In this document: one piece after another, positions 8,186 through 27,547 of the stretch
Layout of the letters: every line of letters begins with the position of its first letter
How positions within the stretch are numbered: the stretch's first letter is position 1
Source: a virus
IMG/VR virus record: IMGVR_UViG_3300034061_003499
Span: 1-27,808 of that record
Length of the DNA stretch: 27,808 bases
Direction: 5' to 3' (one strand)
Program-made: the position numbers and the translations under genes
Notes under the pieces: generated by a model
What the model was told of the DNA's origin: nothing
The model's input: the letters and a program-made list of their open reading frames with translations, nothing else
Database searches by the model: none

Positions 8186-8189
8186 GTTG

Positions 8190-8197
8190 TATTTATC
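8190..8197 (-). promoter_or_regulatory. NATAAATA late-promoter-like motif before the 764-aa gene
   Basis: GATAAATA lies four bases (CAAC) upstream of the ATG at 8185 and overlaps the TGA stop of the terminase gene. If it acts as a T4-type late promoter, the transcript would begin at or next to the start codon. Confidence 0.6.
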
Positions 8198-9743
8198 ATC
8201 CTATCACAGCAAAGAAGGGTAATGGGGCAATATACTCATCGTGGTCGCGAATTTGTTCTTCTAAATCATAGTGATAATCTGCTAATAACTGCAACATCCT
8301 AACAGTCAATAGTGACGCCATAACCAAATCGTCAGTTTCACCTACTTTTGCTTCATAACTACCACCCAATGCAACAAAAGTTTTTAACTCACTTATTAGA
8401 CTTTTGCTATGAATCGTCATTTTTTTACTTTCTAGCAAAGTTTTAAATTTGGCGCAGGCTGTTAATTTTACCTTATGTGTAGTGTTAAATCCTTTTCGTT
8501 TTTTGCCGGGTTCACTTAAAAAAATGCCAGGAATATTACTTTCTCCGTATTCTGCTAGAGATACTAGTGCAGCCTCACCTATACTATTATTTTCAATTGA
8601 GTAATAAATGTTGTCAGGTTCTTCAGTGCATTCAGCAATATACTTGTTTATTTGTGCTAACAACTTAACTTGATTGGGAATATCTGTTTTATTATGCTTC
8701 CATTCACCTATTTGAGTAGTCGAGTTAGCCTCAAATACTTGTATAGCAGCAGGGTCACTTCCTGTACCAAGACTTGGATCTAATGCAACTGCGTATATAT
8801 TTCCCTTTACTGGTTTTTTATACCAACGTACCTGTCCCATACGTGTAATGGGTTCTATACCTTCCAAGTCAATTAATGTGCTAGGATTTATCAATGTCTC
8901 ATCTGCAATTAAGAATTCACAACCAATTTCACGACGGAATCGATCATCGCCTAATTGGGCTTTCATTTCACTAGCCCATTTTTCATCTCTACCGGGTTGC
9001 TCACTATAATGCGCTCTATATGCTTTAAACCCATTAGTACCTAATTCAGTTGTGTTTCCGTATTCGTCAACACACTTGTTTGCTTGTTTCCAAATTAAGG
9101 CAAATTGGTCTTCGTCACTGTTTGGGGTACTAGTTATAATCGCTTTACCACCAGTAGCCAAAGTGGGCGTGATAGAGGTCCAGAATAACTCAGCAATGGA
9201 AGGTCTAACGAATGCAAACTCGTCTAAGTATAGCAATGAGATAGACATACCACGACCTGTATTTTCTGTCGTGGTTGCTGACACGATACGAGAACCGTTC
9301 TCGAAATCGAGGGACCCTTTGTTGTATGTGGTCACGCCCGCTTTGATGTGATCGGGGCAGTTTTCATATGCATAACGTATACGTTGCATAATTTCCTGCG
9401 CGCCTGTGTACTTGTGTGCTGCAATTAGAATTGTACTGTCCGGTACAAACATAGCATACCATAATAGATATCCGGCAGCACTTGTTGACTTACCACTTTG
9501 TCGAGGCATTAGGCTAATGCTATAGCGATAATTGTGATAAGTTTCAATTAATCGTTTCTGATATGGCCATGGATGATAGACCATGCTACCGCGTGTAGGG
9601 TGTTGTATGTAGAAGAAGTTATCCATAAAATATAGATAACCGGTTTTTGGATCACAACACTTAACAAAGTCATCCAACTCTTTCTGAGTTGCAAACTTTG
9701 TTTTTACATACGGTGTTTTAACTAATGATGCTGTTCCACTCAT
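8196..9743 (-). CDS. terL: Terminase large subunit, T4 gp17 type
   Basis: 515 aa, shorter than T4 gp17 (610 aa). It is the DNA-packaging motor, an ATPase plus headful nuclease. The ATPase half shows the HPWPYQKRL adenine-binding region (57-65), Walker A MPRQSGKST (79-87), Walker B LLYLDEFAF (170-178) and the coupling motif TSTPN near 204-208. The nuclease half shows the acidic residues expected of the RNase H-like fold: ALDPSLGTGSD, ENNSIG and GETDDLVMA. It sits between a small membrane-protein gene and the 764-aa late gene. The ATG follows AATAAATA plus five bases, with no Shine-Dalgarno; the motif overlaps the stop of the gene upstream. Confidence 0.96.
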   Translation of the reverse strand: MSGTASLVKTPYVKTKFATQKELDDFVKCCDPKTGYLYFMDNFFYIQHPTRGSMVYHPWPYQKRLIETYHNYRYSISLMPRQSGKSTSAAGYLLWYAMFVPDSTILIAAHKYTGAQEIMQRIRYAYENCPDHIKAGVTTYNKGSLDFENGSRIVSATTTENTGRGMSISLLYLDEFAFVRPSIAELFWTSITPTLATGGKAIITSTPNSDEDQFALIWKQANKCVDEYGNTTELGTNGFKAYRAHYSEQPGRDEKWASEMKAQLGDDRFRREIGCEFLIADETLINPSTLIDLEGIEPITRMGQVRWYKKPVKGNIYAVALDPSLGTGSDPAAIQVFEANSTTQIGEWKHNKTDIPNQVKLLAQINKYIAECTEEPDNIYYSIENNSIGEAALVSLAEYGESNIPGIFLSEPGKKRKGFNTTHKVKLTACAKFKTLLESKKMTIHSKSLISELKTFVALGGSYEAKVGETDDLVMASLLTVRMLQLLADYHYDLEEQIRDHDEYIAPLPFFAVIG

Positions 9744-9748
9744 TGAAT

Positions 9749-9756
9749 TATTTATT
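9749..9756 (-). promoter_or_regulatory. NATAAATA late-promoter-like motif before terminase
   Basis: AATAAATA ends five bases (ATTCA) before the terminase ATG and includes the TAA stop of the 81-aa gene. Confidence 0.55.
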
Positions 9757-9997
9757 TGGAATCATCTTTAGGGCAACCTTTTGATTTACCACCATTAATA
9801 GTTAATCCACCTAACAAGCCAACAAATGCACCAACTACTGTGCTGAATGCAGGACCAATGATTTCAAATACTTTATCATTGTTTACACGATCATCGAATA
9901 ATCCAACTAACATCACAGTCACTACGCATACAACTACAGCAGCCAGTGTAAGTATAGTTACTTTAAATATCCAGGTGATTAGATCGTCGTCTTTCAT
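9752..9997 (-). CDS. Small two-helix membrane protein, holin candidate, 81 aa
   Basis: Starts MKDDDLITWIFKVTILTLAA. There is one transmembrane helix at about residues 8-33 (rich in Val and Leu), a charged loop (DDRVNNDKV), and a second hydrophobic, Gly-rich segment at about 44-67, followed by a short basic and acidic tail. Two helices with both ends charged fits a class II holin, which would release the endolysin, and the spanin genes lie in the same late block. Equally it could be an unrelated membrane protein, since no endolysin gene is visible nearby. The ATG is two bases after the stop of the 500-aa gene, suggesting coupling. Confidence 0.7.
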   Translation of the reverse strand: MKDDDLITWIFKVTILTLAAVVVCVVTVMLVGLFDDRVNNDKVFEIIGPAFSTVVGAFVGLLGGLTINGGKSKGCPKDDSK

Positions 9998-9998
9998 G

Positions 9999-11501
9999 TT
10001 AACTTATTTCTTGCCACTCAACACTTGCGTAAATATCTTGGTTAGTACCGGTAGTAGCCATAGTAATTACATATTCATATGCAACACCGGTAAATGGTTC
10101 TCTTTCTAGTTGGTATGTAAATGAGAATGTTTGCTGTGTGGGAGCGCCGGTGCTTTGATTTGTGCTATTTAAAAATGCTTGTTCAGCAATATCACCACTT
10201 ACTAATGCAGTGGGTGCTAGATTATACTGAACCGAACTATCTGCGGCAGAGTCTACCCAACTTCCACCTGAGGTAATTGCTTTTTTATATACACGATATT
10301 GGAATACGCTACCTGATATAGGAACTAAAGTATAATTCATAGGTATAACCACAGCATTCAAGTTAGTACTCTTTAATCGAATCGCTATAACTGGCTTGAA
10401 ACTATTATCGTTGGGTAATCTTACAGGTGTTCCCAATGCATGTGCTGCTGCTCTTGGATTACCTGATCCTGATAACTGAAATCCACCCTCACTGATAACT
10501 GAACTACATATTTGTGTCATCATACTAGTGCCGGTAGTAGTACCAGTATTAGTGATTTCGTAACGAATAGGCAATGTCGCAGTAGTCATGTAGACTTTGG
10601 TATTTCCGGGTTGGTTAGCATGATTAAACTGATGGCAAATAATGTAAGCACCATTGATCACAAATCCAGTACGTACTGATCCTACACCTAACCATTCAAC
10701 GTCAGCAAACATGATTTGTGTACGATCGGGGTATAGTGTGTAGCCTGAAGGATTAGTTGCGCCGCCGGCGCCGTTCAATCTATCACCATTCCATGCATCT
10801 TGTCTTACACGTTCTTCTACCCCAGTTGAGCCTGAACGAATAACCATGTAATTATACGTGCCATCGTTTTCAAAGAAAACGCCGTCGGCGCTACTAAACA
10901 ATCCCACTCGCTGACGCAGATTGGCTTCAGGAGTGTTCATGCAGAATGTGTTTAATGTGAGTTGGCTTTTACCCGGTTGATAGGGGAATGGTTTTAGTGT
11001 TTCTCGTATTACGCTATCACCTGAAGCAGAACCTACATTAAGTTGATAACTGCTTTGATTTTGTACATACACGACATTACCTGTGCCAGAAACATTTGAA
11101 GCAAACTGACCATGATCGTAGTAGCGGGCTTGAGTGTCAAATAATGTATATGGCTCTGATACTCTTAGACGTCCAAACGCATCAGATGTTGCACCACTAA
11201 ATCCTGAAATAACTACATTAGCATCACCGTTGAGAGTAGCATTTACATTACCAGATACTACCCAAGGATCCGTTCCTTGAAGTACAGTGACATTACCACT
11301 ATCAATTGTTACTGGAAGAGTAGTACCAGAAATATCAACATTACCCAATGACCCAATAGCAACATTGCCTATCGAAACATTTCCTAAAACCTGTGCATCA
11401 GTTCGTACAAATACTTGTCCTGTTGCTTCGTCAAGTTCTAAGGCCTGCGTAATGTTTCTAAGATACCAGGGCGCTACTTCAGTTGGGTTTGGGGTTGCCA
11501 T
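9999..11501 (-). CDS. Probable virion structural protein (tail or fibre-like), 500 aa
   Basis: Starts MATPNPTEVAPWYLRNITQA. Residues 40-105 are a run of short beta repeats built on GNV (VLGNVSIGNVAIGSLGNVDI and similar), as seen in phage fibre or baseplate-decorating proteins. After a GATSDAFGRLRVSEPYTLFD junction the rest is Ser/Thr/Asn/Gly-rich beta sequence with no cysteine-rich or catalytic motif. The FGRLRVSEP junction is one I associate with virion proteins of marine T4-like phages. The ATG at 11501 lies just beyond a perfect hairpin and five T residues; a GTG four codons upstream is possible. Exact virion location is not known. Confidence 0.78.
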   Translation of the reverse strand: MATPNPTEVAPWYLRNITQALELDEATGQVFVRTDAQVLGNVSIGNVAIGSLGNVDISGTTLPVTIDSGNVTVLQGTDPWVVSGNVNATLNGDANVVISGFSGATSDAFGRLRVSEPYTLFDTQARYYDHGQFASNVSGTGNVVYVQNQSSYQLNVGSASGDSVIRETLKPFPYQPGKSQLTLNTFCMNTPEANLRQRVGLFSSADGVFFENDGTYNYMVIRSGSTGVEERVRQDAWNGDRLNGAGGATNPSGYTLYPDRTQIMFADVEWLGVGSVRTGFVINGAYIICHQFNHANQPGNTKVYMTTATLPIRYEITNTGTTTGTSMMTQICSSVISEGGFQLSGSGNPRAAAHALGTPVRLPNDNSFKPVIAIRLKSTNLNAVVIPMNYTLVPISGSVFQYRVYKKAITSGGSWVDSAADSSVQYNLAPTALVSGDIAEQAFLNSTNQSTGAPTQQTFSFTYQLEREPFTGVAYEYVITMATTGTNQDIYASVEWQEIS

Positions 11502-11503
11502 AA

Positions 11504-11528
11504 AAATACTCACTTATAGTGAGTATTT
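11504..11528 (-). promoter_or_regulatory. Perfect inverted repeat at the start of the 500-aa gene
   Basis: Arms AAATACTCAC and GTGAGTATTT (10 bp) around a five-base loop, followed on the minus strand by TTTTT and then the ATG. The left arm overlaps the GATAAATA motif. It could be an attenuator, a ribosome-site hairpin or a protein operator. Confidence 0.6.
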
Positions 11529-11531
11529 ATC
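11524..11531 (-). promoter_or_regulatory. NATAAATA late-promoter-like motif upstream of the 500-aa gene
   Basis: GATAAATA lies 22 bases before the ATG at 11501, five bases after the stop of the methyltransferase gene. Confidence 0.55.
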
Positions 11532-11535
11532 TTTG

Positions 11536-12225
11536 TTACTTTATGTCTAATGGTCGCTGTTTAGTAACCAAAATACAGTAAAATCTTTCTTTTACTGGTT
11601 TATTGTTGCCATTCTGATCAGGTATACTTAAGTCAAAATCTAAACCATTGAATGCGTTGATATCAAATCCAGTTCGTTGTAGTAAGGCTATGATTTGATT
11701 GCTACCCATAATACTATAGTGATTTAAATTCCATTCGTGTTTACGTTCACAATCAGGAGCAGGTACTTCAATATACATTTTTCCGCCTTGCTTGAGTATT
11801 CGATTATACTCAATAAGGCTAAAAATAGGATAGGGACTATGTTCCAATGCATGACGTAGAAAGATAAAATCTACACTCTCATCAGTGTATCCATCTTTTT
11901 GTGGAAGAAAACTCAGATCATATTTTTTGATAGTATGTCCTTTATCTTCGCACAACTTGATATCACCGGGGCTTAGAGTCACACCTACTGTATTTGTATA
12001 TCCTCTTTTTTTCATTTCATCCAAAAAGTATCCCGGGCCGCAACCCAAATCTAATATAGATGCATTTTTAGGCAAATTTAACGGGTCTACATAAGTTTCA
12101 ACTACTTGGGTAGTCAATTGCTTATGATAAGGGCTTTCACCTTCATCATAGATGTGTGCAGTGTAAAGCCATTCGTTATAAAACTTAATTTTTACAAGGT
12201 CTATTGTTTGGTTAATATCTATCAT
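11536..12225 (-). CDS. SAM-dependent methyltransferase, class I
   Basis: 229 aa. Motif I is ILDLGCGPGYFLDEM (57-71), the SAM-binding glycine loop; GVTLSPGDIKLCEDKGH follows as the acidic-loop region, DFIFLRHALEHSPYPI as motif IV/post-IV and ILKQGGKMYIEVPAP as the next strand. This matches the Methyltransf_11/23 type that methylates small molecules or sugars. No DNA-methylase DPPY or NPPY motif is present, so DNA base methylation is unlikely. An epimerase and aminotransferase are encoded 2.5 kb upstream, so a sugar substrate is possible. The ATG is directly preceded by a hairpin rather than a Shine-Dalgarno. Substrate unknown. Confidence 0.88.
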   Translation of the reverse strand: MIDINQTIDLVKIKFYNEWLYTAHIYDEGESPYHKQLTTQVVETYVDPLNLPKNASILDLGCGPGYFLDEMKKRGYTNTVGVTLSPGDIKLCEDKGHTIKKYDLSFLPQKDGYTDESVDFIFLRHALEHSPYPIFSLIEYNRILKQGGKMYIEVPAPDCERKHEWNLNHYSIMGSNQIIALLQRTGFDINAFNGLDFDLSIPDQNGNNKPVKERFYCILVTKQRPLDIK

Positions 12226-12251
12226 AGTAATCTTAATTTAGATTACTTATC
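12226..12251 (-). promoter_or_regulatory. Inverted repeat abutting the methyltransferase start
   Basis: Arms AGTAATCT and AGATTACT (8 bp, 12226-12233 and 12240-12247) end directly at the ATG at 12225. The upstream arm overlaps GATAAGTA (12251-12244), a one-base variant of NATAAATA, the same arrangement seen at the 500-aa gene. Confidence 0.5.
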
Positions 12252-12275
12252 AATCATTTGTGCAGTTAAAAAAAA

Positions 12276-12638
12276 TTATAATCCCTTAAAGGGTTTAATA
12301 GGACTTTGAACATTGGTACTATCTAATTCTTTACTCGAGGTGTCACCATTGTTTAAATCTTTAAACTCAATTCCTGCTGCTTTATAAGCCATTTTAAGCA
12401 TATTTGCTTCTACATCAGTATATGCATGTGCGGAGTTGAATTTTCCTACCCAACTTTCTTGATCTATCGTGGGTACAGTTGTGCCGTCTGTTTCTGCCAC
12501 TGCCATCATAACTCTATTAAGATCATAAAGTCTATCATAAGGAGCATCTGCAAATAGATGGAGTCCTTTTGTTGATTGCTGATATCGTTTGGGCATGGTT
12601 CCTCTTATATCTTCATTCATGAACTCTTTTGCTCTCAT
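12276..12638 (-). CDS. MRAKEF-type protein B, 120 aa, possible internal head protein
   Basis: Starts MRAKEFMNEDIRGTMPKRYQ and ends SPIKPFKGL. Both ends match the neighbouring 133-aa gene, while the middle differs, so they are diverged tandem paralogs. Both middles share a LYDLNRVMMAVA / LYRFGVAIAAV-like segment and a V-rich tail. The N-terminus resembles the capsid-targeting sequence of T4 internal proteins (a short peptide with EF and then Glu, removed by the prohead protease after hydrophobic-x-Glu). If so, F-M-N-E would be the cleavage site. The ATG overlaps the upstream stop (TAATG) and no Shine-Dalgarno is seen. Function otherwise unknown. Confidence 0.78.
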   Translation of the reverse strand: MRAKEFMNEDIRGTMPKRYQQSTKGLHLFADAPYDRLYDLNRVMMAVAETDGTTVPTIDQESWVGKFNSAHAYTDVEANMLKMAYKAAGIEFKDLNNGDTSSKELDSTNVQSPIKPFKGL

Positions 12639-13039
12639 TAGTATAATCCTTTAAAAGGTTTTACAGGTGATACTGTATGAGTGTCATCCATCTCATCACT
12701 ACCGGGCGTGCTTACAGGTTTTTTGCCATGTTTGTTAACTTTTGCTAAAGCCTTGTCTATTAGTTCACCTACATTAGGATCAAATGAACTAACGATTTGA
12801 TTCTCTCCCCATTCACTTTCAGATTTGAAGTTAGGTTCATTACCGTCCATGACATTATCTTCACGTCCTTGCTCCCCGCGCACGGCTGCAATGGCGACTC
12901 CAAACCTATATAAGTCATAAAAGTCTTGATTTTTTAATTCAGGTATAACAAACGTATTGGGTAGTGCTTTTGCTGCAACTTCCAAACCATCATGAATGGA
13001 ACTAAGTTTTTGTTCTTTGATAAATTCTTTTGCTCTCAT
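12638..13039 (-). CDS. MRAKEF-type protein A, 133 aa, possible internal head protein
   Basis: Starts MRAKEFIKEQKLSSIHDGLE and ends SPVKPFKGLY. The shared N- and C-terminal peptides with the 120-aa neighbour are encoded by synonymous but different codons, so selection acts on the peptides. F-I-K-E at residues 6-9 could be a prohead protease site as in the capsid-targeting peptide of T4 internal proteins. The centre has LYRFGVAIAAVRGEQGREDN followed by an Asn/Asp-rich linker. Its ATG overlaps the stop of the 287-aa structural gene (TAATG), so the three genes form a coupled unit. No other family is recognised. Confidence 0.78.
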   Translation of the reverse strand: MRAKEFIKEQKLSSIHDGLEVAAKALPNTFVIPELKNQDFYDLYRFGVAIAAVRGEQGREDNVMDGNEPNFKSESEWGENQIVSSFDPNVGELIDKALAKVNKHGKKPVSTPGSDEMDDTHTVSPVKPFKGLY

Positions 13040-13902
13040 TATGATTGTTGCATTATTTGTGAGAAAATTGTGTGAGTTAAATTACTCGACACTATGGGGT
13101 CGCATAAAATTCTAACATTAGAACCGTCTACATCCATATCATATCTGCATAAAGCATTTCCAATAAACGTTGTTCCATATGCACTAAAATTTACATTGTT
13201 GTTAGTATTATTTATCTGTGCAGTTAGGATAATATTTTGACTGTCAAAAACGTTATCAGAAGACCTTATATTAAATTGCATTTGATTGAAATTTGCAATT
13301 TCTGTTGAAAAAATAACCTGATTTGCAGTGTTTCCGATTGTGTTTGACGTAACAGGAACAACTGTTGTTGCAAACAAGTTTGCAAAATTATTGTTGATTT
13401 TACTGAATGCAGTACGTAATGGGTCGCCGGTACCATCGTTGGGTACCGCACCTATGTCAACTACTTCTTGACTACCAATTGTAGTCAATGTATCTGATGT
13501 AACTGAAGAAAAACTTACGATTATTTCTGGTACCGGCGGCACTGAAATAATCTTCATATTTGTTGTTAGATCAAACAAATTAGAAAAATTCTTATTTATT
13601 TTCGTAAAGGCATTTCGTACAGTATCGCTTTGCTCACCTTGGCCAATATTAATTAAATCGACAGGTGCACTAAAAATCTTTAATTTTAAAAAGTTATCAT
13701 TTACTGTTTGGAATGCTGCACCCAGTACAACAGCCGGATCATCGTCCAAATTATACTGAATAATTATAGGAGATAAAATAACAGTATTAGTATACTTTTG
13801 TAAGTATTTAAAATTGGTATTAATTTTTTTAATAGCAGCGCGGACCGAATCACCAGGGCGATCGGGTGTTGAACTGACTTCAATTATTTCCTGAGTAAAC
13901 AT
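13039..13902 (-). CDS. Repeat-bearing virion structural protein, 287 aa
   Basis: Four copies of a repeat ending in xxAFxKINxNFxxL are visible: SVRAAIKKINTNFKYL, AVVLGAAFQTVNDNFLKL, TVRNAFTKINKNFSNLF and DPLRTAFSKINNNFANLF, the last preceded by GAVPNDGTGD. I know this NDGTGDxLRxAFxKINxNF repeat from tail or baseplate-associated proteins of marine T4-like phages. The C-terminal 100 residues are beta-rich and Asn/Ser-rich. Two starts compete: ATG at 13902, four bases after AATAAATA, chosen here because four other late genes share that layout; or GTG at 13917, which overlaps the spanin stop as GTGA. Confidence 0.82.
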   Translation of the reverse strand: MFTQEIIEVSSTPDRPGDSVRAAIKKINTNFKYLQKYTNTVILSPIIIQYNLDDDPAVVLGAAFQTVNDNFLKLKIFSAPVDLINIGQGEQSDTVRNAFTKINKNFSNLFDLTTNMKIISVPPVPEIIVSFSSVTSDTLTTIGSQEVVDIGAVPNDGTGDPLRTAFSKINNNFANLFATTVVPVTSNTIGNTANQVIFSTEIANFNQMQFNIRSSDNVFDSQNIILTAQINNTNNNVNFSAYGTTFIGNALCRYDMDVDGSNVRILCDPIVSSNLTHTIFSQIMQQS

Positions 13903-13906
13903 ACTG

Positions 13907-13914
13907 TATTTATT
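13907..13914 (-). promoter_or_regulatory. NATAAATA late-promoter-like motif before the repeat-bearing structural gene
   Basis: AATAAATA ends four bases (CAGT) before the ATG at 13902 and overlaps the TGA stop of the lipoprotein gene. Confidence 0.55.
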
Positions 13915-14186
13915 CACTTACCGGAATTTGCTTCTTCGAATATCTTCTTTTGATCTTTATACCAGTCTTGCCATGCATGTGCTAAATCTTTACAGTTGTG
14001 GTATTTCATATAGTTTCTAGTAACAGTTTTCATTAAATCGCTTAATAATACCTTTGGTTCTTCAATAGTTTCTAGTGCAGGACATTTTTGCATCAAAACT
14101 TCAGGTGCTTCAGGAAATTTTTGTTTCACCGGGATAGTAGTAGAACAACCGGTTAATAACACACAAAATAGTAGTATATATTTCAT
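13914..14186 (-). CDS. Outer-membrane lipoprotein, Rz1-like o-spanin
   Basis: 90 aa with a lipoprotein signal: MKYILLFCVLLTGC, with lipobox LTGC and acylated Cys14. The mature part reads KFPEAPEVLMQKCPALETIE, then LLSDLMKTVTRNYMKYHNCK and WQDWYKDQKKIFEE, a pattern typical of Rz1-type lipoproteins of phages of Gram-negative hosts, which span the periplasm together with an inner-membrane partner and fuse the membranes at lysis. The start overlaps the stop of the 171-aa i-spanin candidate (ATGA). Length is larger than lambda Rz1 (60 aa) but normal for separated two-gene spanins. Confidence 0.8.
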   Translation of the reverse strand: MKYILLFCVLLTGCSTTIPVKQKFPEAPEVLMQKCPALETIEEPKVLLSDLMKTVTRNYMKYHNCKDLAHAWQDWYKDQKKIFEEANSGK

Positions 14187-14698
14187 TTCTTAGGAAAAAT
14201 TAATTTTGATTTAGCAGCATCATTGTGCAATTTAGTATCCACCGGTGTAGTAGGTGTCGCTACTGTCAGTTCTTCTACTGACTTACTTAGCGCCGCAGCA
14301 TTATGGGCTTTAATTACCGATTCAGGTATAGGGCAAGTTTTGTCATAATGTACTACTTCCCTATCTATGTATTTTATAATGTCTTCGCCCTTCTCCCTAA
14401 TTACCTCTCGTTTAGTGAGAATTTCTTTTACAATTTTTGTATTTACTTTGGATGCTCTAATTTCAGCATCTTTGAGTTTAACTTCCAATTCTGCAATTTT
14501 TTGCTTGAGTTTCTTTTCTTGAGCCAATCCACCTTCAAGGTACACGCCCCAAGCAAAAATCAATATGCTTATTACTTGTATAGGGAATTTATATCTATTA
14601 AGTATAGGAATAAAACTAAGGACAAAGCCGGCTATTATTCCTAGTACACCTACTACAAATATAGTATGAGTAAAAAATTCAGTTATTTCTGCAAACAT
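14183..14698 (-). CDS. Inner-membrane i-spanin (Rz-like) protein, 171 aa
   Basis: Two hydrophobic segments at about residues 8-33 and 38-56 are followed by a long Lys/Glu coiled coil (about 60-115: KKLKQKIAELEVKLKDAEIR onward). The end has DKTCPIPESVIKAHNAAA, a sequence typical of Rz-like proteins just after the coiled coil. Together with the downstream lipoprotein it forms a two-component spanin that disrupts the outer membrane in the last step of lysis. Classical Rz has one helix, so the second segment is unusual. The ATG follows GATAAATA plus five bases and no Shine-Dalgarno is present. Confidence 0.78.
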   Translation of the reverse strand: MFAEITEFFTHTIFVVGVLGIIAGFVLSFIPILNRYKFPIQVISILIFAWGVYLEGGLAQEKKLKQKIAELEVKLKDAEIRASKVNTKIVKEILTKREVIREKGEDIIKYIDREVVHYDKTCPIPESVIKAHNAAALSKSVEELTVATPTTPVDTKLHNDAAKSKLIFPKK

Positions 14699-14703
14699 GC
14701 AGA

Positions 14704-14711
14704 TATTTATC
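14704..14711 (-). promoter_or_regulatory. NATAAATA late-promoter-like motif before the spanin genes
   Basis: GATAAATA ends five bases (TCTGC) before the ATG at 14698 and contains the TAA stop of the aminotransferase gene. Confidence 0.58.
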
Positions 14712-17014: not shown

Positions 17015-17016
17015 GA

Positions 17017-21521: not shown

Positions 21522-21548
21522 TGGTTGGTCCTTTATTAACATGTTTGT

Positions 21549-21577: not shown

Positions 21578-21820
21578 TTATTGCAGCCGTCGAGGATTTG
21601 TCTCAGTATCCAATGATACTAGTGCATCTGACAATTTCTGAAATTCATCCTCAGGAAGTGCATCAATTAATTCATCAATTGGAGTAGAATTCTCAAACAA
21701 TTCTCCATTAGCAGCCATTGTTCGTATTTGTTCTACAAGGTTATCCAACTCTTCCTGTGACCCTTCAAAGTCATCAAAACAACCCGGGGCAAAAACAATT
21801 TCTAATTTCTTTTCGGACAT
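21578..21820 (-). CDS. Acidic small protein, 80 aa
   Basis: Starts MSEKKLEIVFAPGCFDDFEG, then SQEELDNLVEQIRTMAANGE and a run of DELIDALPEDEFQKLSDALV. It is helical and strongly acidic. It lies between the MoxR and VWA genes, so it may serve as their adaptor, though nothing in the sequence proves it. The longer frame upstream runs back through the terminator and is rejected. There is no clear Shine-Dalgarno; the leader between the terminator T-run and the ATG is only 13 bases (A/T-rich), so expression probably depends on read-through. Confidence 0.65.
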   Translation of the reverse strand: MSEKKLEIVFAPGCFDDFEGSQEELDNLVEQIRTMAANGELFENSTPIDELIDALPEDEFQKLSDALVSLDTETNPRRLQ

Positions 21821-21833
21821 AAATTTATTTAGT

Positions 21834-21860
21834 AAAAAAAGGGTGAGATTTCTCACCCTT
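21834..21860 (-). terminator. Intrinsic terminator after the MoxR gene
   Basis: Stem AAGGGTGAG / CTCACCCTT with a short loop, followed on the minus strand by seven T residues: a textbook terminator about 18 bases after the MoxR stop codon. It lies directly upstream of the 80-aa gene, which would be reached only by read-through. Confidence 0.9.
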
Positions 21861-21878
21861 GTATAAACAACTAATAAC

Positions 21879-22976
21879 TCAGTTGCCTGCTTCCACAATG
21901 TACTTGCCGTACTTCTTGTGGAACTCATCAAAGTTCTTCAACTGACCAGGTTCGATCGGCAACTTGTAAGTCTTCAGTGCGATCTTAGCGCCCATAACAA
22001 CCAGTTCAGTTTCGAAGTTGGTCATCATGTAGTTGATGAAGTTCTCAGCCATGACATGGAATTGCTTGTTGTTAACACGCTTGGTGTCGATGGCATCCTT
22101 CAACTCATAACACATTGAAATAGTCAGTGAGTACATAGCAGACACTTCCTTGACTGCGAGGTCCTTGACCTTACCGCTGAGAATATCGCTCGGCTCAGGC
22201 ATGCGCCCTGCAATCTTGCGGTGTGCCATAAACTTAACAGCAAGACCTTCACCAATCGCACCTGCAACCAGATTGAAGAGTGTGTCATTGTCGATACTGT
22301 CATCTTGCAAGAGTTGGCTAACGAAAACCCAAGAGCGCGGGGTAGCAAAACTACGGCTGCTAGATTGTGCATTAAAATCGTACATGTCCTGCTTTGCAAA
22401 AGACAAGTAACCAACTACGTCCTTGTGGATGCCGTTTTGCACAGCCCAAATCTGCCAAGATGAGAAATCGGGACGCATTTCAATGTGAATGAAACGGTTA
22501 GCGAGTGGCATGGGCATGCGGAAAGTAACACCCTTGTCAGTCTCACGATTGCCTGCTGCGACAATAACAACATTGTCAGGCAACACATACTTACCAACTC
22601 GACGGTTCAGAATAAGTTGATAGCCAGCAGCTTGCACTGCAGGGCTAGCACTGTTCATTTCATCGAGGAACAGAACCACGATGGGATGTTGGCTAGCGAA
22701 TTCTTCGTCGGGAAGATCGATCGGGGGAGCCCAATCCATCTTGCCTAGTTCCTTATTGAAGAAGGGGATACCGCGAATGTCAGTAGGATCCAACTGCGCC
22801 ATACGCAAGTCAATTACTGCTCCGCCGAGGTCCTTTGCAATTTCAGCAACAACCTCACTCTTGCCGATGCCCGGGGGACCCCACAAGAAAACAGGGCGCT
22901 TGGCTTTAAATGCAACAGTGATAGCCTTGCGAGCTTGAACGCTAGTGATAGTGAGATTATCAGAGACTTTGGACAT
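21879..22976 (-). CDS. MoxR-family AAA+ ATPase
   Basis: 365 aa. Walker A is GPPGIGKS (33-40), Walker B is VLFLDEMN (101-108), sensor-1 is VIVAAGNRETDKG around 137-149, and MPLANRFIHIEMRPDF holds the arginine-finger region. The C-terminal 150 residues are helical and lid-like. MoxR ATPases work with VWA-domain partners to remodel or metallate protein complexes; the DUF2201/VWA gene just downstream is the evident partner. AGGAGTAAAC precedes the ATG and a consensus promoter lies upstream. It could assist virion assembly or interfere with a host complex; the target is unknown. Confidence 0.93.
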   Translation of the reverse strand: MSKVSDNLTITSVQARKAITVAFKAKRPVFLWGPPGIGKSEVVAEIAKDLGGAVIDLRMAQLDPTDIRGIPFFNKELGKMDWAPPIDLPDEEFASQHPIVVLFLDEMNSASPAVQAAGYQLILNRRVGKYVLPDNVVIVAAGNRETDKGVTFRMPMPLANRFIHIEMRPDFSSWQIWAVQNGIHKDVVGYLSFAKQDMYDFNAQSSSRSFATPRSWVFVSQLLQDDSIDNDTLFNLVAGAIGEGLAVKFMAHRKIAGRMPEPSDILSGKVKDLAVKEVSAMYSLTISMCYELKDAIDTKRVNNKQFHVMAENFINYMMTNFETELVVMGAKIALKTYKLPIEPGQLKNFDEFHKKYGKYIVEAGN

Positions 22977-23010
22977 GTTTACTCCTGTGTGAAAAAGTTT
23001 TGATGATATG

Positions 23011-23039
23011 AGTATATGCTATCTAGGATTTATTGTCAA
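23011..23039 (-). promoter_or_regulatory. Early-type sigma70 promoter (TTGACAATAAAT class)
   Basis: TTGACA (23039-23034), 17-bp spacer starting ATAAATCC, TATACT (23016-23011), 34 bases before the MoxR ATG. Confidence 0.88.
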
Positions 23040-23043
23040 TGCC

Positions 23044-23331
23044 TCACATTGACCAATAAGTTTCGCTAGCGGGGTTGCAACACCAGGGGGTGTCTGTGGC
23101 AATTTCAACGTCCTTTCCTGTCATAAGGTTCTTGACGGTCATAGTTGCGGGTTGGACATCAAAGCGCCAACCGTTCTTCTTGGGATACAGTACCTGAGCC
23201 AAATCAGTCAGTTCACGTTGAACCGTGTCACGTGCCATACCTGTGAACGGATATTTAGCAATGAAACGTTCGCCGGACTTACAACGCTTGTCAGCCTTGT
23301 AAACAGAAACAATCCAATCTTGCTTGCTCAT
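23044..23331 (-). CDS. Hypothetical protein, 95 aa
   Basis: From the ATG at 23331 (GGAG nine bases upstream) the protein reads MSKQDWIVSVYKADKRCKSG, then ERFIAKYPFTGMARDTVQRE and a beta-rich C-terminal half with WRFDVQPATMTVKNLMTGKD. A small mixed-fold protein with no motif I recognise. Its promoter and leader are a near-perfect duplicate of those of the 90-aa gene at 1603-1875. Transcribed singly; function unknown. Confidence 0.75.
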   Translation of the reverse strand: MSKQDWIVSVYKADKRCKSGERFIAKYPFTGMARDTVQRELTDLAQVLYPKKNGWRFDVQPATMTVKNLMTGKDVEIATDTPWCCNPASETYWSM

Positions 23332-23335
23332 TACG

Positions 23336-23390
23336 CACTCCATTAATCAATCAATACACGTAGTATATGCCCAAACCGATTTATTGTCAA
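23336..23390 (-). repeat. 55-bp duplicated promoter-leader, copy 2
   Basis: Matches 1880-1934 at 53 of 55 positions. It covers ribosome site, leader and promoter of the 95-aa gene; coding sequences on either side are unrelated. Confidence 0.9.
23362..23390 (-). promoter_or_regulatory. Early-type sigma70 promoter (TTGACAATAAAT class)
   Basis: TTGACA (23390-23385), 17-bp spacer starting ATAAATCG, TATACT (23367-23362). The stop codon of the HEMVH metallopeptidase gene lies in the -35 hexamer. Confidence 0.88.
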
Positions 23391-23821
23391 CCTTCGAGGA
23401 TGATATGTGCGACCTTGTTTGCCATAACACGCTCACGGCTGAAAGCTTCCAGTTCCCAAGGGCTGTCAAAATAATGGGTATTGTAGTCACGACCCATCCA
23501 CGACCAAACAACCTCACCCTTTCGGTTGTATCGGCTCTTCAATTGTCCCTTGGCACGTTGCTTAACGTGAACCATTTCATGAGCCAATGTTATCAGCAAC
23601 TGTTCCATTGGGAGCCTACTGTCAAGTGCGACAGCAACTACCCTGTCCTCTACAAGACATGCAGCGCCATTCATGCCCATTTCCTTAGCAAAGCCAGGAA
23701 CCATACTTACTACAACCGAGAACTTGCTGTTCTCAATCTTAAGCATTCGGGCATACAGTGCAGTCACTGCCTTGAGTAGTTCCCTCTTAGCAGAAGAACG
23801 GGTGCTGATTTCGATTTCCAT
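23387..23821 (-). CDS. SprT-like zinc metallopeptidase domain protein
   Basis: 144 aa. The key motif is TLAHEMVHVKQ with His81, Glu82 and His85 of HExxH; ELEAFSRE further on (Glu123, Glu125 or Glu130) could provide the third ligand. The short length, the N-terminal helix and the PWELEA segment fit small phage SprT- or WLM-like peptidases. No zinc-ribbon follows. The -10 box ends only six bases before the ATG, so the message may be leaderless. It lies between single-gene units; the substrate is not known and an activity on host or virion proteins is inference. Confidence 0.8.
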   Translation of the reverse strand: MEIEISTRSSAKRELLKAVTALYARMLKIENSKFSVVVSMVPGFAKEMGMNGAACLVEDRVVAVALDSRLPMEQLLITLAHEMVHVKQRAKGQLKSRYNRKGEVVWSWMGRDYNTHYFDSPWELEAFSRERVMANKVAHIILEG

Positions 23822-23827
23822 GTTGCT

Positions 23828-23856
23828 AGTATAGCAAACTACCCATTTATTGTCAA
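23828..23856 (-). promoter_or_regulatory. Early-type sigma70 promoter (TTGACAATAAAT class), very close to the ATG
   Basis: TTGACA (23856-23851), 17-bp spacer starting ATAAATGG, TATACT (23833-23828); only AGCAAC separates the -10 box from the ATG at 23821. Confidence 0.85.
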
Positions 23857-23863
23857 CCTGGTA

Positions 23864-24067
23864 TTATTTCTTAACCGGTACGCAAAGAAATTCTTTACTA
23901 TTTTGCACCAATATATCAATGGTCTTATTCAGTTCAGGAGACCTCTGGCCAGGTACATTCATTCTAATAGCAATCATTTCCCTAATAGCAAACTGACAGG
24001 ATTGAAGATCCTGATAAGTACCTAGATACGAGAAAGGTGCAACCAGTACAAATAACAAATTATACAT
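23864..24067 (-). CDS. Small protein with N-terminal hydrophobic segment, 67 aa
   Basis: Starts MYNLLFVLVAPFSYLGTYQD, which could be a signal peptide or a membrane anchor of about 16 residues, followed by LQSCQFAIREMIAIRMNVPG and a basic end (FLCVPVKK). Two cysteines in the mature part could form a disulphide, suggesting a periplasmic location. The ribosome site is weak (AAGA). It has its own early-type promoter at 24093-24121. I recognise no family. Confidence 0.65.
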   Translation of the reverse strand: MYNLLFVLVAPFSYLGTYQDLQSCQFAIREMIAIRMNVPGQRSPELNKTIDILVQNSKEFLCVPVKK

Positions 24068-24092
24068 ATAATGTCTTAATTTTCAAACTATT

Positions 24093-24121
24093 AGTATAGA
24101 ACCAAGACCATTTATTGTCAA
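24093..24121 (-). promoter_or_regulatory. Early-type sigma70 promoter (TTGACAATAAAT class)
   Basis: TTGACA (24121-24116), 17-bp spacer starting ATAAATGG, TATACT (24098-24093). The stop codon of the SGNH-type gene (24120-24118) is inside the -35 box. Confidence 0.88.
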
Positions 24122-24918
24122 CTTTTTATAAGTTTCGGAATGTACTCTTGCAATAATACATCTGCCATAAACCTTTGATGTTCGGCAGTACTATGATATC
24201 CTGGATCAGAATAACTAGGGTCGTCCGGGTGCCGGATAGCATTTTTGAATCTATTCCCAACATAATTAGTATTGTTTAGAAAACCAGCCATGTGTGGTAA
24301 AGAAGTCAACTTATCTTCAAGAAGTAAAAAAGGAATATTTTGATAATATAATGTAGATAGCATCCCTATATGCATCAACGTGTCTTTTAACTCTTGTAGA
24401 GTAGGATGATACAGATAGGTAAACCATTCTTTGATGGCACTCATTCTTTCATTCTGATACATATCACCATTTAGCGCCCTAGATAAGACGCTATGCTCAT
24501 ACTTACCAACATTGAGGATACCACCTATCGAATAATTACCGATCTTAGAATTTTTGTTTACCCATGGATATGTTCTTACCAATGATTCGGGTTGAGAATA
24601 ATACAAATCTTTTGCAGTAAGCGTCCATGGACTACAACTTCTTGCTTTATCGGGTAACAATTCGTTATGTGGCCATTCTAATCTATCATGAAAAGTATTA
24701 TTTACGAATACCAATGAAGGTTTAGGATCCATCTGAAAAATAGTATTAATCTGTATACATATTGCAGTATTACTGGAACCTCCCATGGCTAACGAGACCA
24801 GATCATACCCCAACTCTTTAGCAACTATTTCAGAAAAATGAGTACCTTCACTTCCTGGGCTAGTGACTGGACTCATAAAGCTGTCACCACATATTACGAT
24901 AAATTTTTTCACACTCAT
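24118..24918 (-). CDS. SGNH/GDSL-type hydrolase-like protein, 266 aa
   Basis: The N-terminus MSVKKFIVICGDSFMSPVTS has the GDS motif with Ser13 as nucleophile. GGSSNTAI (around 46-53) fits the block II glycine, VNNTFHDRLEWP (around 72-83) the block III Asn, and DPGYHSTAEHQRF near 236-248 the Asp-His pair of block V. Members remove or transfer acyl groups on sugars, lipids or peptides; in phages they occur near virion or sugar genes. I would rank it as family-level only, since the spacing of the last block is judged by eye. The start lacks a Shine-Dalgarno and sits in an A/T-rich leader after the 84-aa gene. Confidence 0.75.
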   Translation of the reverse strand: MSVKKFIVICGDSFMSPVTSPGSEGTHFSEIVAKELGYDLVSLAMGGSSNTAICIQINTIFQMDPKPSLVFVNNTFHDRLEWPHNELLPDKARSCSPWTLTAKDLYYSQPESLVRTYPWVNKNSKIGNYSIGGILNVGKYEHSVLSRALNGDMYQNERMSAIKEWFTYLYHPTLQELKDTLMHIGMLSTLYYQNIPFLLLEDKLTSLPHMAGFLNNTNYVGNRFKNAIRHPDDPSYSDPGYHSTAEHQRFMADVLLQEYIPKLIKS

Positions 24919-24936
24919 ATTAAAAATTAAAAATTT

Positions 24937-25191
24937 TTAGTCCATTAATTTTGCTATCAATAGCAGCTGCTCTAGGTATAGGGCAGACTCATTAAATTTT
25001 TTTAACGGTACTTCAAGTTTAGTAGCACTACGCAGGCGTCTGCATTCTACTTCAATTTTTGATATGTCGGAAATCATACCTTCGATATTATCGAACATTT
25101 TGCGAAGGTCGGGATTGTATCTAAGTTTAGATAACTCTTTTCTAAGATTGTCACAAACCTGCCTGGCTTCAATTGCAGTATTAACTTCCAT
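24937..25191 (-). CDS. Hypothetical helical protein, 84 aa
   Basis: From the ATG at 25191: MEVNTAIEARQVCDNLRKEL, SKLRYNPDLRKMFDNIEGMI, SDISKIEVECRRLRSATKLE and a C-terminal LYLEQLLLIAKLMD. It is predicted to be all helix with heptad-like spacing, probably a small coiled-coil protein. A longer frame upstream would cross the promoter and terminator and is rejected. The -10 box ends nine bases before the ATG with no Shine-Dalgarno, so the message may be nearly leaderless. Function unknown. Confidence 0.7.
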   Translation of the reverse strand: MEVNTAIEARQVCDNLRKELSKLRYNPDLRKMFDNIEGMISDISKIEVECRRLRSATKLEVPLKKFNESALYLEQLLLIAKLMD

Positions 25192-25200
25192 GATCGGAGT

Positions 25201-25229
25201 ATTATAATTTATTTTTAATTTAATGTCAA
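25201..25229 (-). promoter_or_regulatory. Sigma70 promoter before the 84-aa gene
   Basis: TTGACA (25229-25224), 17-bp spacer starting TTAAAT (a variant of the ATAAAT extension), TATAAT (25206-25201). Confidence 0.82.
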
Positions 25230-25235
25230 CACATG

Positions 25236-25261
25236 AAAAAAGGCTTACTAGGAGCCTTTTT
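25236..25261 (-). terminator. Intrinsic terminator after the porin gene
   Basis: Stem AAAAAGGCT / AGCCTTTTT with a seven-base loop and T-run, about 18 bases after the porin stop codon; the symmetry makes it able to work in both directions. Confidence 0.88.
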
Positions 25262-25279
25262 ATCACAAGCAATTATTGC

Positions 25280-26161
25280 TTAAAAACGATGAGTAATACC
25301 TACGCCAAGTTGTTGAACGTCTTGTGCTGAACCCAAACGATTAACGTTGCGATAAGCAGCAGACAATTCAGTACGCTTGCTCAATGCATAGTCGGCGCCC
25401 AATGAATATGCCTTAACACTGTCATTGTTTTGACCATAACTTGCCTTAGCAGTTACTGGTCCAAATGCGCGAGATACACCAACCAAGTTGCCCTGATTCT
25501 TTGCAACACCCTTGTTGTCGCTAAATGTGTATGAAACATTGAAGCCAAGTGCCTTAGTGCTCAAGCCCAAAACTGTGCTTGCTTCGGAGCCTTGCTCAAA
25601 ACGAGCAACAGCGCCATTAACACCTAACAATGTACCAGATACACCTACTACTGTAGCATCTTGACCAACTGATGCTAAAGAACGTTCATAAACTAAAGCA
25701 ACTCCCTTTAAAGGTGTTACTGAAACAAATACTGCGTCACCTAGACGTAGGTTACGAAGATTATGAACATCACCTGCAACACTTCCATACAATGTACCGA
25801 ATACGTCATTAGTAGTGATTGCTAAGAAGTGACTATGTACGTTACGACCTAGATCAATAGAACCAAAACTATTTGATACACCAACAGTGCCTTGACGATC
25901 ACCCAATTTTGTGCCAACGCCATCGATGGTGTTACCACGCAAACTGGTTTCAACAACTGCCTTTGCAGCTAGGCCTGAGCCCAATTTTTCAGTGACAGAT
26001 ACAGCAACGTTACTAGTTGGGTCCGTAACCATTTGCGTACTTTTAGTACCACCAACTTCGGTGTTGTCTCCGAAAAGACTAACCTTACCAGATAGTGATA
26101 CTTGTGCGCTTGCAATACTTGCCATTGACATAATTAAAGCAGCCAATATGATTTTCTTCAT
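25280..26161 (-). CDS. Outer-membrane porin of the betaproteobacterial type
   Basis: 293 aa with a signal peptide (MKKIILAALIMSMASIASA, cleavage before Gln20). The mature 274 residues alternate polar and apolar residues as in a beta barrel. Family marks are QVSLSGKVSLFGD at the start, NSFGSIDLGRNVHSHF (the FGxxxLGR element), LGADYALSKRTELSAAYRNV and a final THRF with the terminal Phe used by the Bam complex. Bacterial relatives are usually near 350 residues, so several surface loops must be shortened. AAAGGAAG precedes the ATG. In a phage it could block reinfection, replace the host porin or raise uptake; temperate lambdoid phages that carry porin genes are a precedent. Its own terminator makes it a self-contained unit. 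Confidence 0.9.
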   Translation of the reverse strand: MKKIILAALIMSMASIASAQVSLSGKVSLFGDNTEVGGTKSTQMVTDPTSNVAVSVTEKLGSGLAAKAVVETSLRGNTIDGVGTKLGDRQGTVGVSNSFGSIDLGRNVHSHFLAITTNDVFGTLYGSVAGDVHNLRNLRLGDAVFVSVTPLKGVALVYERSLASVGQDATVVGVSGTLLGVNGAVARFEQGSEASTVLGLSTKALGFNVSYTFSDNKGVAKNQGNLVGVSRAFGPVTAKASYGQNNDSVKAYSLGADYALSKRTELSAAYRNVNRLGSAQDVQQLGVGITHRF

Positions 26162-26181
26162 TTTTCTTCCTTTGTAAAAAT

Positions 26182-26198
26182 GCCTGTTTAAAACAGGC
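26182..26198 (-). promoter_or_regulatory. Leader hairpin with T-run before the porin gene
   Basis: Arms GCCTGTTT and AAACAGGC, followed on the minus strand by ATTTTT and then the ribosome site. This is a small terminator-like structure between a possible -10 (TATACT, 26217-26212) and the porin ATG, so attenuation is possible. Confidence 0.5.
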
Positions 26199-26284
26199 TA
26201 GAATGATATTTAGTATAGAAACTCTGTCTCAAATAAAATTACTGTTTGCACATTATATATGCATACAATGCGTAATCTACTTGA

Positions 26285-26557
26285 TTATAATGTCAAATCA
26301 CCGAATGTACTATCCCATACATCTTTGCTTGTTCTGCGTTTGGATGGAAATAAATTGTGATGCGTTAGTAGAATTCTATTTAGAGAAGAATATACCTCTT
26401 TTGGAAATCCCTGTCTTGTATGGTTCCTGGTATCATTCAACAAATCCATAACATATGGTTCAAAATCTGCTGTGCCCCAACGTATTTCCAATCCCATAGC
26501 AATTCTGGGAAAATGTACATTTACTACCAAATAGTCAAAGTCTTCTTTTATACTCAT
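26285..26557 (-). CDS. Hypothetical protein, 90 aa
   Basis: Starts MSIKEDFDYLVVNVHFPRIA, with MGLEIRWGTADFEPYVMDLL and NDTRNHTRQGFPKEVYSSLN following. The ending SKRRTSKDVWDSTFGDLTL is polar. The ATG is preceded by AGAAAGAGATGCC, a usable ribosome site. It lies between the tmRNA terminator and the porin gene. No family is recognised; similar sequences of this size are common near the ends of phage operons. Confidence 0.68.
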   Translation of the reverse strand: MSIKEDFDYLVVNVHFPRIAMGLEIRWGTADFEPYVMDLLNDTRNHTRQGFPKEVYSSLNRILLTHHNLFPSKRRTSKDVWDSTFGDLTL

Positions 26558-26581
26558 GGCATCTCTTTCTAAAATAGATAC

Positions 26582-26610
26582 AATCTACAGTATCATTGAT
26601 ATATAGTCAA
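26582..26610 (-). promoter_or_regulatory. Possible sigma70 promoter before the 90-aa gene
   Basis: TTGACT (26610-26605), 17-bp spacer, TAGATT (26587-26582). The -10 matches consensus at only some positions, but the location just after the tmRNA terminator makes a promoter necessary here. Confidence 0.45.
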
Positions 26611-26639
26611 GTTTTGTTACAACTGTTACATTTTTAACC

Positions 26640-26667
26640 AAAAAGAAAGGCTCCTGAGAGCCTTTCT
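26640..26667 (-). terminator. Intrinsic terminator after the tmRNA
   Basis: A perfect 10-bp stem (AGAAAGGCTC / GAGCCTTTCT) with a CTGA/TCAG loop and a minus-strand T-run. It marks the 3' end of the tmRNA precursor. Confidence 0.92.
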
Positions 26668-26706
26668 GGTTTGTTTGGTTAGAAGGTCTTTCCTACCTCC
26701 CGAGGG

Positions 26707-26748
26707 TCAAGCCGCTAGGCTGAATACCTCGTCGTTAGCTGCGTTTGC
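26707..26748 (-). other. tmRNA tag-peptide reading frame ANAANDEVFSLAA
   Basis: From the resume codon GCA at 26748 the frame reads ANAANDEVFSLAA and stops with TGA at 26709-26707. The ANDE core and the LAA end match known degradation tags, with LAA recognised by ClpXP. The resume codon is preceded by ATAACT. The exact resume codon is inferred, since a GCA four codons on (ANDEVFSLAA preceded by GCT) offers a shorter alternative. Confidence 0.8.
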
Positions 26749-26835
26749 AGTTATAAGTTTTGCTTGATTTACGGTCATCGCCTACCGTGCTGTCCACTCT
26801 GTTACTCTTTACCCCGTCGAAACCTGGTCAGCCCC

Positions 26836-26893
26836 ATCAAAAGCACACTAGCGAACCTTGTCACATACCAGATGACTTTCTAAAGTACGCTTT
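26836..26893 (-). other. Intervening segment removed from permuted tmRNA
   Basis: Fifty-eight bases lie between the acceptor CCA (ending at 26894) and the mature 5' end of the coding piece (26835). In permuted tmRNAs this segment is excised, RNase P cutting at the coding-piece 5' end. No reading frame is seen in it. Confidence 0.75.
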
Positions 26894-26964
26894 TGGTGGA
26901 GCTGGGCGGAATCGAACCGCCGTCCGGAACACGTTTCTCTTTGCTTCATACAGCAATAATCTAC

Positions 26965-26993
26965 AGTGTATATTTATCTGATTACTTTTTCAA
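26965..26993 (-). promoter_or_regulatory. Promoter for the tmRNA, sigma70-like
   Basis: TTGAAA (26993-26988), 17-bp spacer, TACACT (26970-26965), placing the start near 26958, just ahead of the acceptor piece. The -35 lies within the end of the ADP-ribosyltransferase-like gene. Confidence 0.6.
26971..26978 (-). promoter_or_regulatory. NATAAATA late-promoter-like motif upstream of the tmRNA
   Basis: GATAAATA lies within the sigma70 spacer and contains the TAA stop of the upstream gene. It suggests the tmRNA may also be transcribed late in infection. Confidence 0.5.
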
Positions 26994-27531
26994 CCATTTC
27001 GGGCGTAATCTTTAATATAGGCAAACTCAATATAGTTTCGTTTGGGTTTGCCACTAACATAGAATTTATGCCCAAATATTTAATTGTTGGTCCATTCAAT
27101 GCTAACACTACCTCTGATTCTACAGGATTGTGCTTTAGTACTACACCTGCATCATCTGACCTCGCATAATCTATTGCCAATTGTTTGCGCGGGGTCCATG
27201 CACTAATTTGACTCTTAATATCTAAACCACCGTTGCTTATCTTATCTAACTGTGACTCGTTTTTTAGCATTAATCCACGATATACAGTGGGTAGATTTGA
27301 ATATGTTGCAATTACCTGATCAGGTAATACACTACGAATGGCATAAAACACGTTCGCATACGCATCCATAGTTTGTGGGTTAGCACTAAACAACCCAGTG
27401 TATATCCACTTCATTAAGTGCGGATAGGCTTCAACTATGCTCAATTCTCGCATACGTTTTTTTGCATTATCCAATGGCTCTATATGTTTAGTTATATAGG
27501 GACGTGGATTTTCTATTTCATTAATACGCAT
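26974..27531 (-). CDS. Probable ADP-ribosyltransferase, possibly packaged in the head
   Basis: 185 aa. The C-terminal 105 residues have the R-S-E layout of arginine-type ADP-ribosyltransferases: VYRGL with Arg85, ISAWTPRKQLAIDYA with Ser110 and the following helix, and ANPNETILSLP with Glu165 as candidate catalytic glutamate. The usual second Glu or Gln two residues before it is Pro here, so the site is atypical and activity is uncertain. The N-terminus MRINEIENPRP recalls short targeting peptides of T4 head-packaged proteins such as Alt, an ADP-ribosyltransferase injected with the DNA to modify RNA polymerase. The ATG follows CATAAATA plus four bases within an inverted repeat. It lies just upstream of the tmRNA, whose promoter overlaps its end. 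Confidence 0.6.
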   Translation of the reverse strand: MRINEIENPRPYITKHIEPLDNAKKRMRELSIVEAYPHLMKWIYTGLFSANPQTMDAYANVFYAIRSVLPDQVIATYSNLPTVYRGLMLKNESQLDKISNGGLDIKSQISAWTPRKQLAIDYARSDDAGVVLKHNPVESEVVLALNGPTIKYLGINSMLVANPNETILSLPILKITPEMVEKVIR

Positions 27532-27547
27532 ATATTATTTATGCGTA
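27525..27547 (-). promoter_or_regulatory. Inverted repeat with CATAAATA at the start of the ADP-ribosyltransferase gene
   Basis: Arms TACGCATA and TATGCGTA (8 bp, 27540-27547 and 27525-27532) include the start codon in one arm. The late-type motif CATAAATA (27543-27536) lies across the loop, four bases before the ATG. Confidence 0.55.

Follow-up and report, generated by a model that had tools for sequence, protein, structure and literature searches.

Late messages of bacteriophage T4 have leaders and ribosome-binding sites. They start from promoters with the box TATAAATA, which are used with gp55, gp33 and gp45; the T4 box is described as 8 base pairs (bp) long with an A at -13, and thus spans -13 to -6 (PMC2988020), and NATAAATA is given for the cyanomyovirus S-PM2 (PMC2988020, PMC2984593). 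Here we describe late-type boxes in the window, a 27,808-base IMG/VR fragment of a T4-related jumbo phage in which the minus strand codes nearly all genes. The box is the same as in those systems and so are the late structural genes, but, unlike in T4, Syn9, PA5oct, Atu_ph07 and Phosso, a subset of late genes has the box fused to the start codon. At six window genes NATAAATA or CTAAATA, both close to TATAAATA, lies 4 or 5 nucleotides (nt) before the ATG. We put at roughly 85% the probability that these near boxes are late promoters of the gp55 type that have merged with the start codon, which would give leaderless or nearly leaderless late mRNAs.

Leaderless translation is rare in enterobacteria such as E. 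coli, according to a review (PMC9031893). From a -10-like box ~10-12 bp ahead of the start codon, leaderless mRNAs were likewise deduced for the TA-led genes of bacteria (Zheng et al., 2011, PMC3160421). In that study the box is the host sigma70 -10 element of bacterial genomes, whereas here it is a phage late-sigma box serving a subset of phage genes. In phiKZ, also a jumbo phage, late transcription begins inside a TATG motif that overlaps the start site (PMC7598289). That system differs in its multisubunit phage RNA polymerase and in a +1 on the G of TATG, and it has no AT-rich box; thus phiKZ would make no AUG-led leaderless message of the present kind. Late promoters and leaderless mRNAs are both known, and we found their union as a widespread layout of the T4 superfamily in no earlier report. 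No report of leaderless late messages was found in the literature on T4-like, jumbo, cyano- and pelagiphages within a coverage that leaves out most subscription journals and preprints, and the literature on PA5oct and other relatives yielded no usable transcript map.

The window holds ten copies of ATAAATA, all on the minus (coding) strand. This total is not an over-representation (10 observed, 11.6 expected from dinucleotide shuffles), so overall frequency was dropped as an argument and position alone was used. Five NATAAATA copies closely precede an ATG, by 4 nt at 27531, 5 nt at 14698, 4 nt at 13902, 5 nt at 9743 and 4 nt at 8185; these are the five near sites that a preliminary description of the window had reported. 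A sixth near site, absent from that description, is CTAAATA at 21832-21826, which is 5 nt before the ATG at 21820, and a terminator ends 1 nt upstream of its C. Near TAAATA (4-6 nt) thus occurs six times in the window versus ~0.3 expected. On the minus strand, an ATG opening at least 60 codons follows at 4-6 nt after 5/10 copies of ATAAATA, as against 4/174 copies of its other letter permutations (Fisher P 1.7e-5); the four hits among the latter are TAAATAA and AATAAAT, both able to overlap these same ATAAATA boxes. Three further copies, which the preliminary description had placed before a 500-amino-acid (aa) gene, the gp32 gene and the transfer-messenger RNA (tmRNA), were also found, the first 22 nt and the second ~110 nt upstream; the remaining two (13599, 13215), not mentioned there, fall within the 287-aa coding sequence. 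The copies at the 500-aa and gp32 genes would yield leaders and that at the tmRNA would drive an RNA gene, so the leaderless claim concerns near boxes only. For these, the sequence-level tests reported below support the earlier proposal of T4-type late promoters whose RNA begins on or beside the AUG. The near boxes, their genes and the adjoining terminator are:

27536..27543, minus strand: near box CATAAATA of the 185-aa gene, 4 nt before ATG 27531
26974..27531, minus strand: 185-aa gene, predicted leaderless; its stop TAA is inside the tmRNA box; no PHROGs or Pfam match
21834..21860, minus strand: intrinsic terminator, hairpin plus T7, dG -14.4, after the upstream ATPase gene and ending 1 nt before the next box
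21826..21832, minus strand: near box CTAAATA, 5 nt before ATG 21820
21578..21820, minus strand: 80-aa gene, predicted leaderless; no orthologue in the fetched loci
14704..14711, minus strand: near box GATAAATA, 5 nt before ATG 14698
14183..14698, minus strand: 171-aa gene of a lysis-like pair, predicted leaderless; phrog_4952
13907..13914, minus strand: near box AATAAATA, 4 nt before ATG 13902
13039..13902, minus strand: 287-aa structural gene, predicted leaderless; T4 gp9/10 N-terminal domain (PF07880, E 7.9e-07)
9749..9756, minus strand: near box AATAAATA, 5 nt before ATG 9743
8196..9743, minus strand: terminase large subunit gene, predicted leaderless; phrog_36964, E 2.4e-108
8190..8197, minus strand: near box GATAAATA, 4 nt before ATG 8185, overlapping the terminase stop codon
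5891..8185, minus strand: 764-aa virion structural gene, predicted leaderless; phrog_13484, E 3.7e-07

Of the annotated phages, PA5oct (51% identity), Phosso and Atu_ph07, all of them T4-related jumbo phages, have the terminases nearest to that of the window. IMG/VR contains hundreds of relatives that are closer still, of which the best 80 share 80-89% identity across the terminase. One of these best-80 terminases is carried by a contig of 524,565 bases (G001); two other relatives, G002 and G003, are fragments. For each TAAATA, ATGs opening at least 60 codons were counted at every distance from 0 to 40 nt, and expected near counts were taken from neighbouring distances; 400 kilobases each of Atu_ph07 and Phosso were used. 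TAAATA lies 4-6 nt before the ATG of an open reading frame (ORF) 60 times in G001 (8.7 expected, P 6e-30), 16 times in G002 (2.2 expected) and 13 times in G003 (1.6 expected). The distances are bimodal in all three, with a sharp peak at 4-6 nt and a broad second peak at ~15-27 nt. The distance histograms of T4, Syn9, PA5oct, Atu_ph07 and Phosso show only the far group, with no rise at the near distances.

The motif also emerges when none is chosen beforehand. Among hexamers ranked 4-6 nt before ATG in G001, the top ten are Shine-Dalgarno (SD)-type sequences or their flanks, TAAATA, and the overlapping ATAAAT. TAAATA was counted 42 times over 492 genes in G001 (3.6 expected), 11 times over 166 genes in G002 and 10 times over 147 genes in G003, and it is outside the top ten in PA5oct, T4 and Syn9. 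In the relatives the motif does favour gene starts, so that the refuting case named in the preliminary description fails there: 62/343 copies of ATAAATA stand at 4-6 nt before an ORF ATG compared with 133/8961 for composition-matched permutations, and ATAAATA is the sole strongly enriched one among 21 permutations of the same letters. The preferred start codon is ATG (60 in G001, versus 14.4 per three bins elsewhere); the counts are 5 versus 1.0 for GTG and 6 versus 3.2 for TTG, and the weak GTG excess at near distance is confined to G001. An A precedes TAAATA in 71% of near (n=63), 72% of far (n=96) and 88% of T4 boxes, and a C follows in 44% of near and 43% of far boxes. The flanks of near and far boxes are alike, and on the simplest reading they represent a single promoter element in two placements. 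One position, G at -13, differs between the classes (near 29%, far 54%).

Orthologues were compared in the best 80 loci plus G001-3, a set that still contains near-copies and in which three of the 80 loci share sequence with G001-3. The near box is found at 76/83 terminases, at 68/80 orthologues of the 764-aa gene, which is the downstream neighbour, and at 24/43 orthologues of the 171-aa gene. Orthologues of other window genes have it rarely or never: g120 (0/58), g133 (0/51), the gp32 gene (0/50), g90 (0/46), UvsX (0/37), ThyX (0/30), a methyltransferase (3/62) and an aminotransferase (1/25). In a wider set of 115 deduplicated terminases, 68 are of the near type, 3 far and 44 neither, with 41/47 near in the window's own clade. 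None of the seven named phages tested has a near box at its terminase.

Twelve of the 44 terminases in the neither group have TAAGTA at exactly 5 nt. Had one subclade changed its boxes to TAAGTA throughout the genome, this would have argued strongly for co-evolution, but ATAAGTA-N4-6-ATG occurs only 1 to 3 times per contig in four contigs, so that TAAGTA is a variant retained mainly at the terminase.

PHROGs matches were obtained for 20/60 near genes scanned in G001, including a virion structural protein, a baseplate hub, a radical-SAM protein and homing endonucleases, and for 10/73 far genes, including portal, baseplate wedge and tail fibre. Both sets look late, and no clear functional split between them is apparent among the matched genes. 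Also found repeatedly behind a near box is the uncharacterised family phrog_36119 (L090:6765-8807, L099:265-2685, L361:2730-3752).

Dozens of contigs have a terminator that ends 0-6 nt ahead of the box. In this count a hairpin plus T-tract was allowed a gap of 0-14 nt to the box, and the near sites found all have 0-6 nt. In the window's clade, such terminators precede 13/243 near boxes, 8/237 far boxes and 10/1355 TAAATA copies in neither placement; in the loci found with the PA5oct terminase the values are 16/76, 5/45 and 8/256, and in five cultured genomes they are 0/11 for near and 6/154 for far boxes. Pattern scans of IMG/VR, each of at least 120 stretches, are non-random samples in which the make-up of the listed sites can be compared. 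After removal of duplicates and of sites less than 40 nt from an end, 67/107 sites among the listed matches to T7-NN-ATAAATA-N5-ATG have both a hairpin and an ORF, versus 5/81 with an N10 spacer. The terminator-preceded near genes include terminase, the tail tube family phrog_45 and others. Since the terminator should stop the upstream message before the gene, a promoter would be needed in the stretch from the T-tract to the ATG, where the box is the sole element.

The layout also occurs in a cultured phage. The SAR11 (Pelagibacter) phage HTVC008M, a pelagimyophage with HTCC1062 as its listed host, has 21 TAAATA-N4-6-ATG sites, 14 of which match annotated starts when compared by eye: gp010, gp014 (CsgF), gp019, gp020 (tape measure), gp025 (DNA end protector), gp026 (head closure), gp027 (tail tube cap), gp035, gp053 (baseplate wedge), gp063 (baseplate wedge initiator), gp092, gp093 (tail completion), gp105 and gp190. 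Its near peak is 13 versus 3.0 expected (P 1.6e-5). The divergent gp025 and gp026 have 26 bp between their ATGs, and two back-to-back late boxes are located there (L564:18917-18942). Next after the capsid gene, a tail tube/tail completion gene has its box 5 nt from the ATG in HTVC008M and in Mosig, and ~20 nt away with an SD-like stretch in Melnitz and C48C1. According to a pelagimyophage survey, attempts to predict late promoters did not succeed in this group (PMC7029224); we suggest the location of the box at the start codon as a possible reason.

The promoter reading of the near boxes is strong and draws on comparative sequence, from which we infer their activity; where exactly the RNA begins, and that it is translated without a leader, are predictions. 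A phage gp55-family sigma on the host RNA polymerase would recognize the near boxes. With the T4 box at -13 to -6, a 5-nt gap puts +1 on the A of the ATG, and a gap of 4 or 6 nt puts it one base aside. RNA synthesis would thus begin at, or within 1-2 bases of, the start codon at terminase, at the structural gene next to it, at the 171-aa gene and at further late genes, and the leaderless message would be initiated at its 5'-terminal AUG without an SD. A second set of late genes, with the same box ~15-27 nt upstream, would have an ordinary leader and often an SD; this far class is placed as in T4. The gp55-like sigma gene, sought elsewhere than in the window, is present in the relatives, with members of the family (phrog_12791, phrog_234) in G001, G002, G004 and PA5oct, and gp099 of HTVC008M is annotated as a late sigma.

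Several observations weigh against leaderless late messages of this kind. The near peak is not significant in Mosig (6 versus 3.8, P 0.19) or Melnitz (3 versus 2.2, P 0.37). Among the fetched loci there are no orthologues of the 185-aa and 80-aa genes, and the single orthologue found for the 287-aa gene is of the far type. The fragment G003 gave no sigma match, and PA5oct shows no near peak despite encoding a sigma of this kind. Of seven records, two (T4 and Syn9) gave a match to the sliding clamp family phrog_223; G001-G004 and PA5oct did not, so any activation of late transcription by a clamp would be conjectural in them. The SD core, sought in -18 to -5, is present in 0/63 near genes, 50/88 far genes (14-30 nt window) and 236/654 others. 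This favours leaderless messages, but the near box fills part of the SD zone and so in part dictates the absence. In the window, the absence of a normal SD that had been noted for the near genes applies to five of the six and not to the 764-aa gene, which has AGGA upstream of its box; as only 8/25 checked window genes lacking a near box have an SD core, its absence is not distinctive there. Moreover, the upstream stop codon is overlapped by, or is inside, 4/6 window near boxes, so translational coupling is possible at those genes.

Coupling to the upstream gene, with the motif as a by-product of compact junctions where a TAA or TGA stop overlaps the box, is nevertheless highly improbable as the general explanation. 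Across the window and G001-3, the stop of the upstream ORF is inside or after the box in only 12/94 near sites, and anywhere from -25 to ATG+15 in 32/94, and coupling leaves the terminator-preceded and divergent sites unexplained. It is very unlikely that these are late promoters with a +1 a few nt further upstream, whose very short leaders would allow ordinary 30S initiation, or that the true start codon is further downstream. Start-site choice may move by 1-2 bases, and by T4 geometry a 6-nt gap does give a 1-nt leader. However, the gaps peak sharply at 4-5 nt, the T4 spacing that puts +1 on or beside the A, there is no room for an SD, and the ATG is the annotated start at the 14 HTVC008M sites.

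AU-rich initiation regions are known, and TAAATA could be such an element (a ribosome standby or S1 site) on longer messages rather than a promoter, as it occupies the place of the SD and its position is tied to the ATG. We consider this unlikely given that the same box and flanks occur at promoter distance from SD-led genes, that no other permutation in the comparison above is strongly enriched, and that, where a terminator ends 0-6 nt ahead of the box, there is no message from upstream to carry it. Host sigma70 -10 elements were also considered; the exact ATAAATA specificity, the late-gene content and the flanks common to far boxes oppose them, the -35 region of near sites not having been scanned. 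At terminator-preceded sites the upstream (-35) region is a hairpin of locus-varying sequence.

If late promoters of common aquatic phages do start RNA at the start codon itself, late gene expression in these phages would depend on leaderless translation, and they would provide a natural, abundant system for asking what leaderless messages serve. A practical rule would be to seek pelagimyophage late promoters inside the last 15 nt before the ATG; gene callers tuned to SD sites may misplace such starts. More doubtfully, we suggest that several aquatic T4-superfamily lineages might split one late regulon into a leaderless class (70S, 5' AUG) and a leadered SD class (30S), the ratio of which could shift as the phage alters the ribosome late, with promoter, start codon and upstream terminator forming a ~45-nt cassette mobile between genes. 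The leaderless set would then comprise terminase, baseplate hub, lysis-like and other genes, and a phage bS21 (G001, G003, HTVC008M) would be at hand for the late change of the ribosome.

Genes for bS21 were identified in G001 (two, C1:63744-63896 and 471943-472095), G003, PA5oct and HTVC008M. As an explanation of the near boxes bS21 was rejected: PA5oct has it without a near peak, so it fails to track them.

Two functions given in the preliminary description were not borne out. The 185-aa gene, named there as an ADP-ribosyltransferase, could not be confirmed as such, given its lack of database matches, and the 171-aa gene, named as an i-spanin, matches only phrog_4952 ('signal peptide motif'); the Rz-like spanin match is its 90-aa neighbour. 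The copies of the box outside the near placement are:

26971..26978, minus strand: tmRNA box GATAAATA, preceding the permuted tmRNA
11524..11531, minus strand: far box GATAAATA, 22 nt before ATG 11501 of the 500-aa virion gene
5839..5846, minus strand: GATAAATA, ~110 nt upstream of the gp32 gene; no leaderless site

At the tmRNA box, T4 spacing would put the RNA start ~10 nt upstream of the 5' end of the Rfam model (26955). The tmRNA itself is a permuted, two-piece molecule (26642-27006, minus strand) with the tag ANAANDEVFSLAA, and it matches Rfam beta_tmRNA (120.7 bits) and tmRNA_permuted. This type hints at a betaproteobacterial host or donor. Also encoded is a Gram-negative outer-membrane porin (25280-26161, minus strand; PF13609, E 6.5e-22), and gp042 of HTVC008M is likewise annotated as a porin. 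The leader of the 500-aa virion gene (11501-11531, minus strand) has a small hairpin (CTCACTATAAGTGAG) and a T-run after the far box, without an SD core, and a similar hairpin leader is present at the terminase of locus L020.

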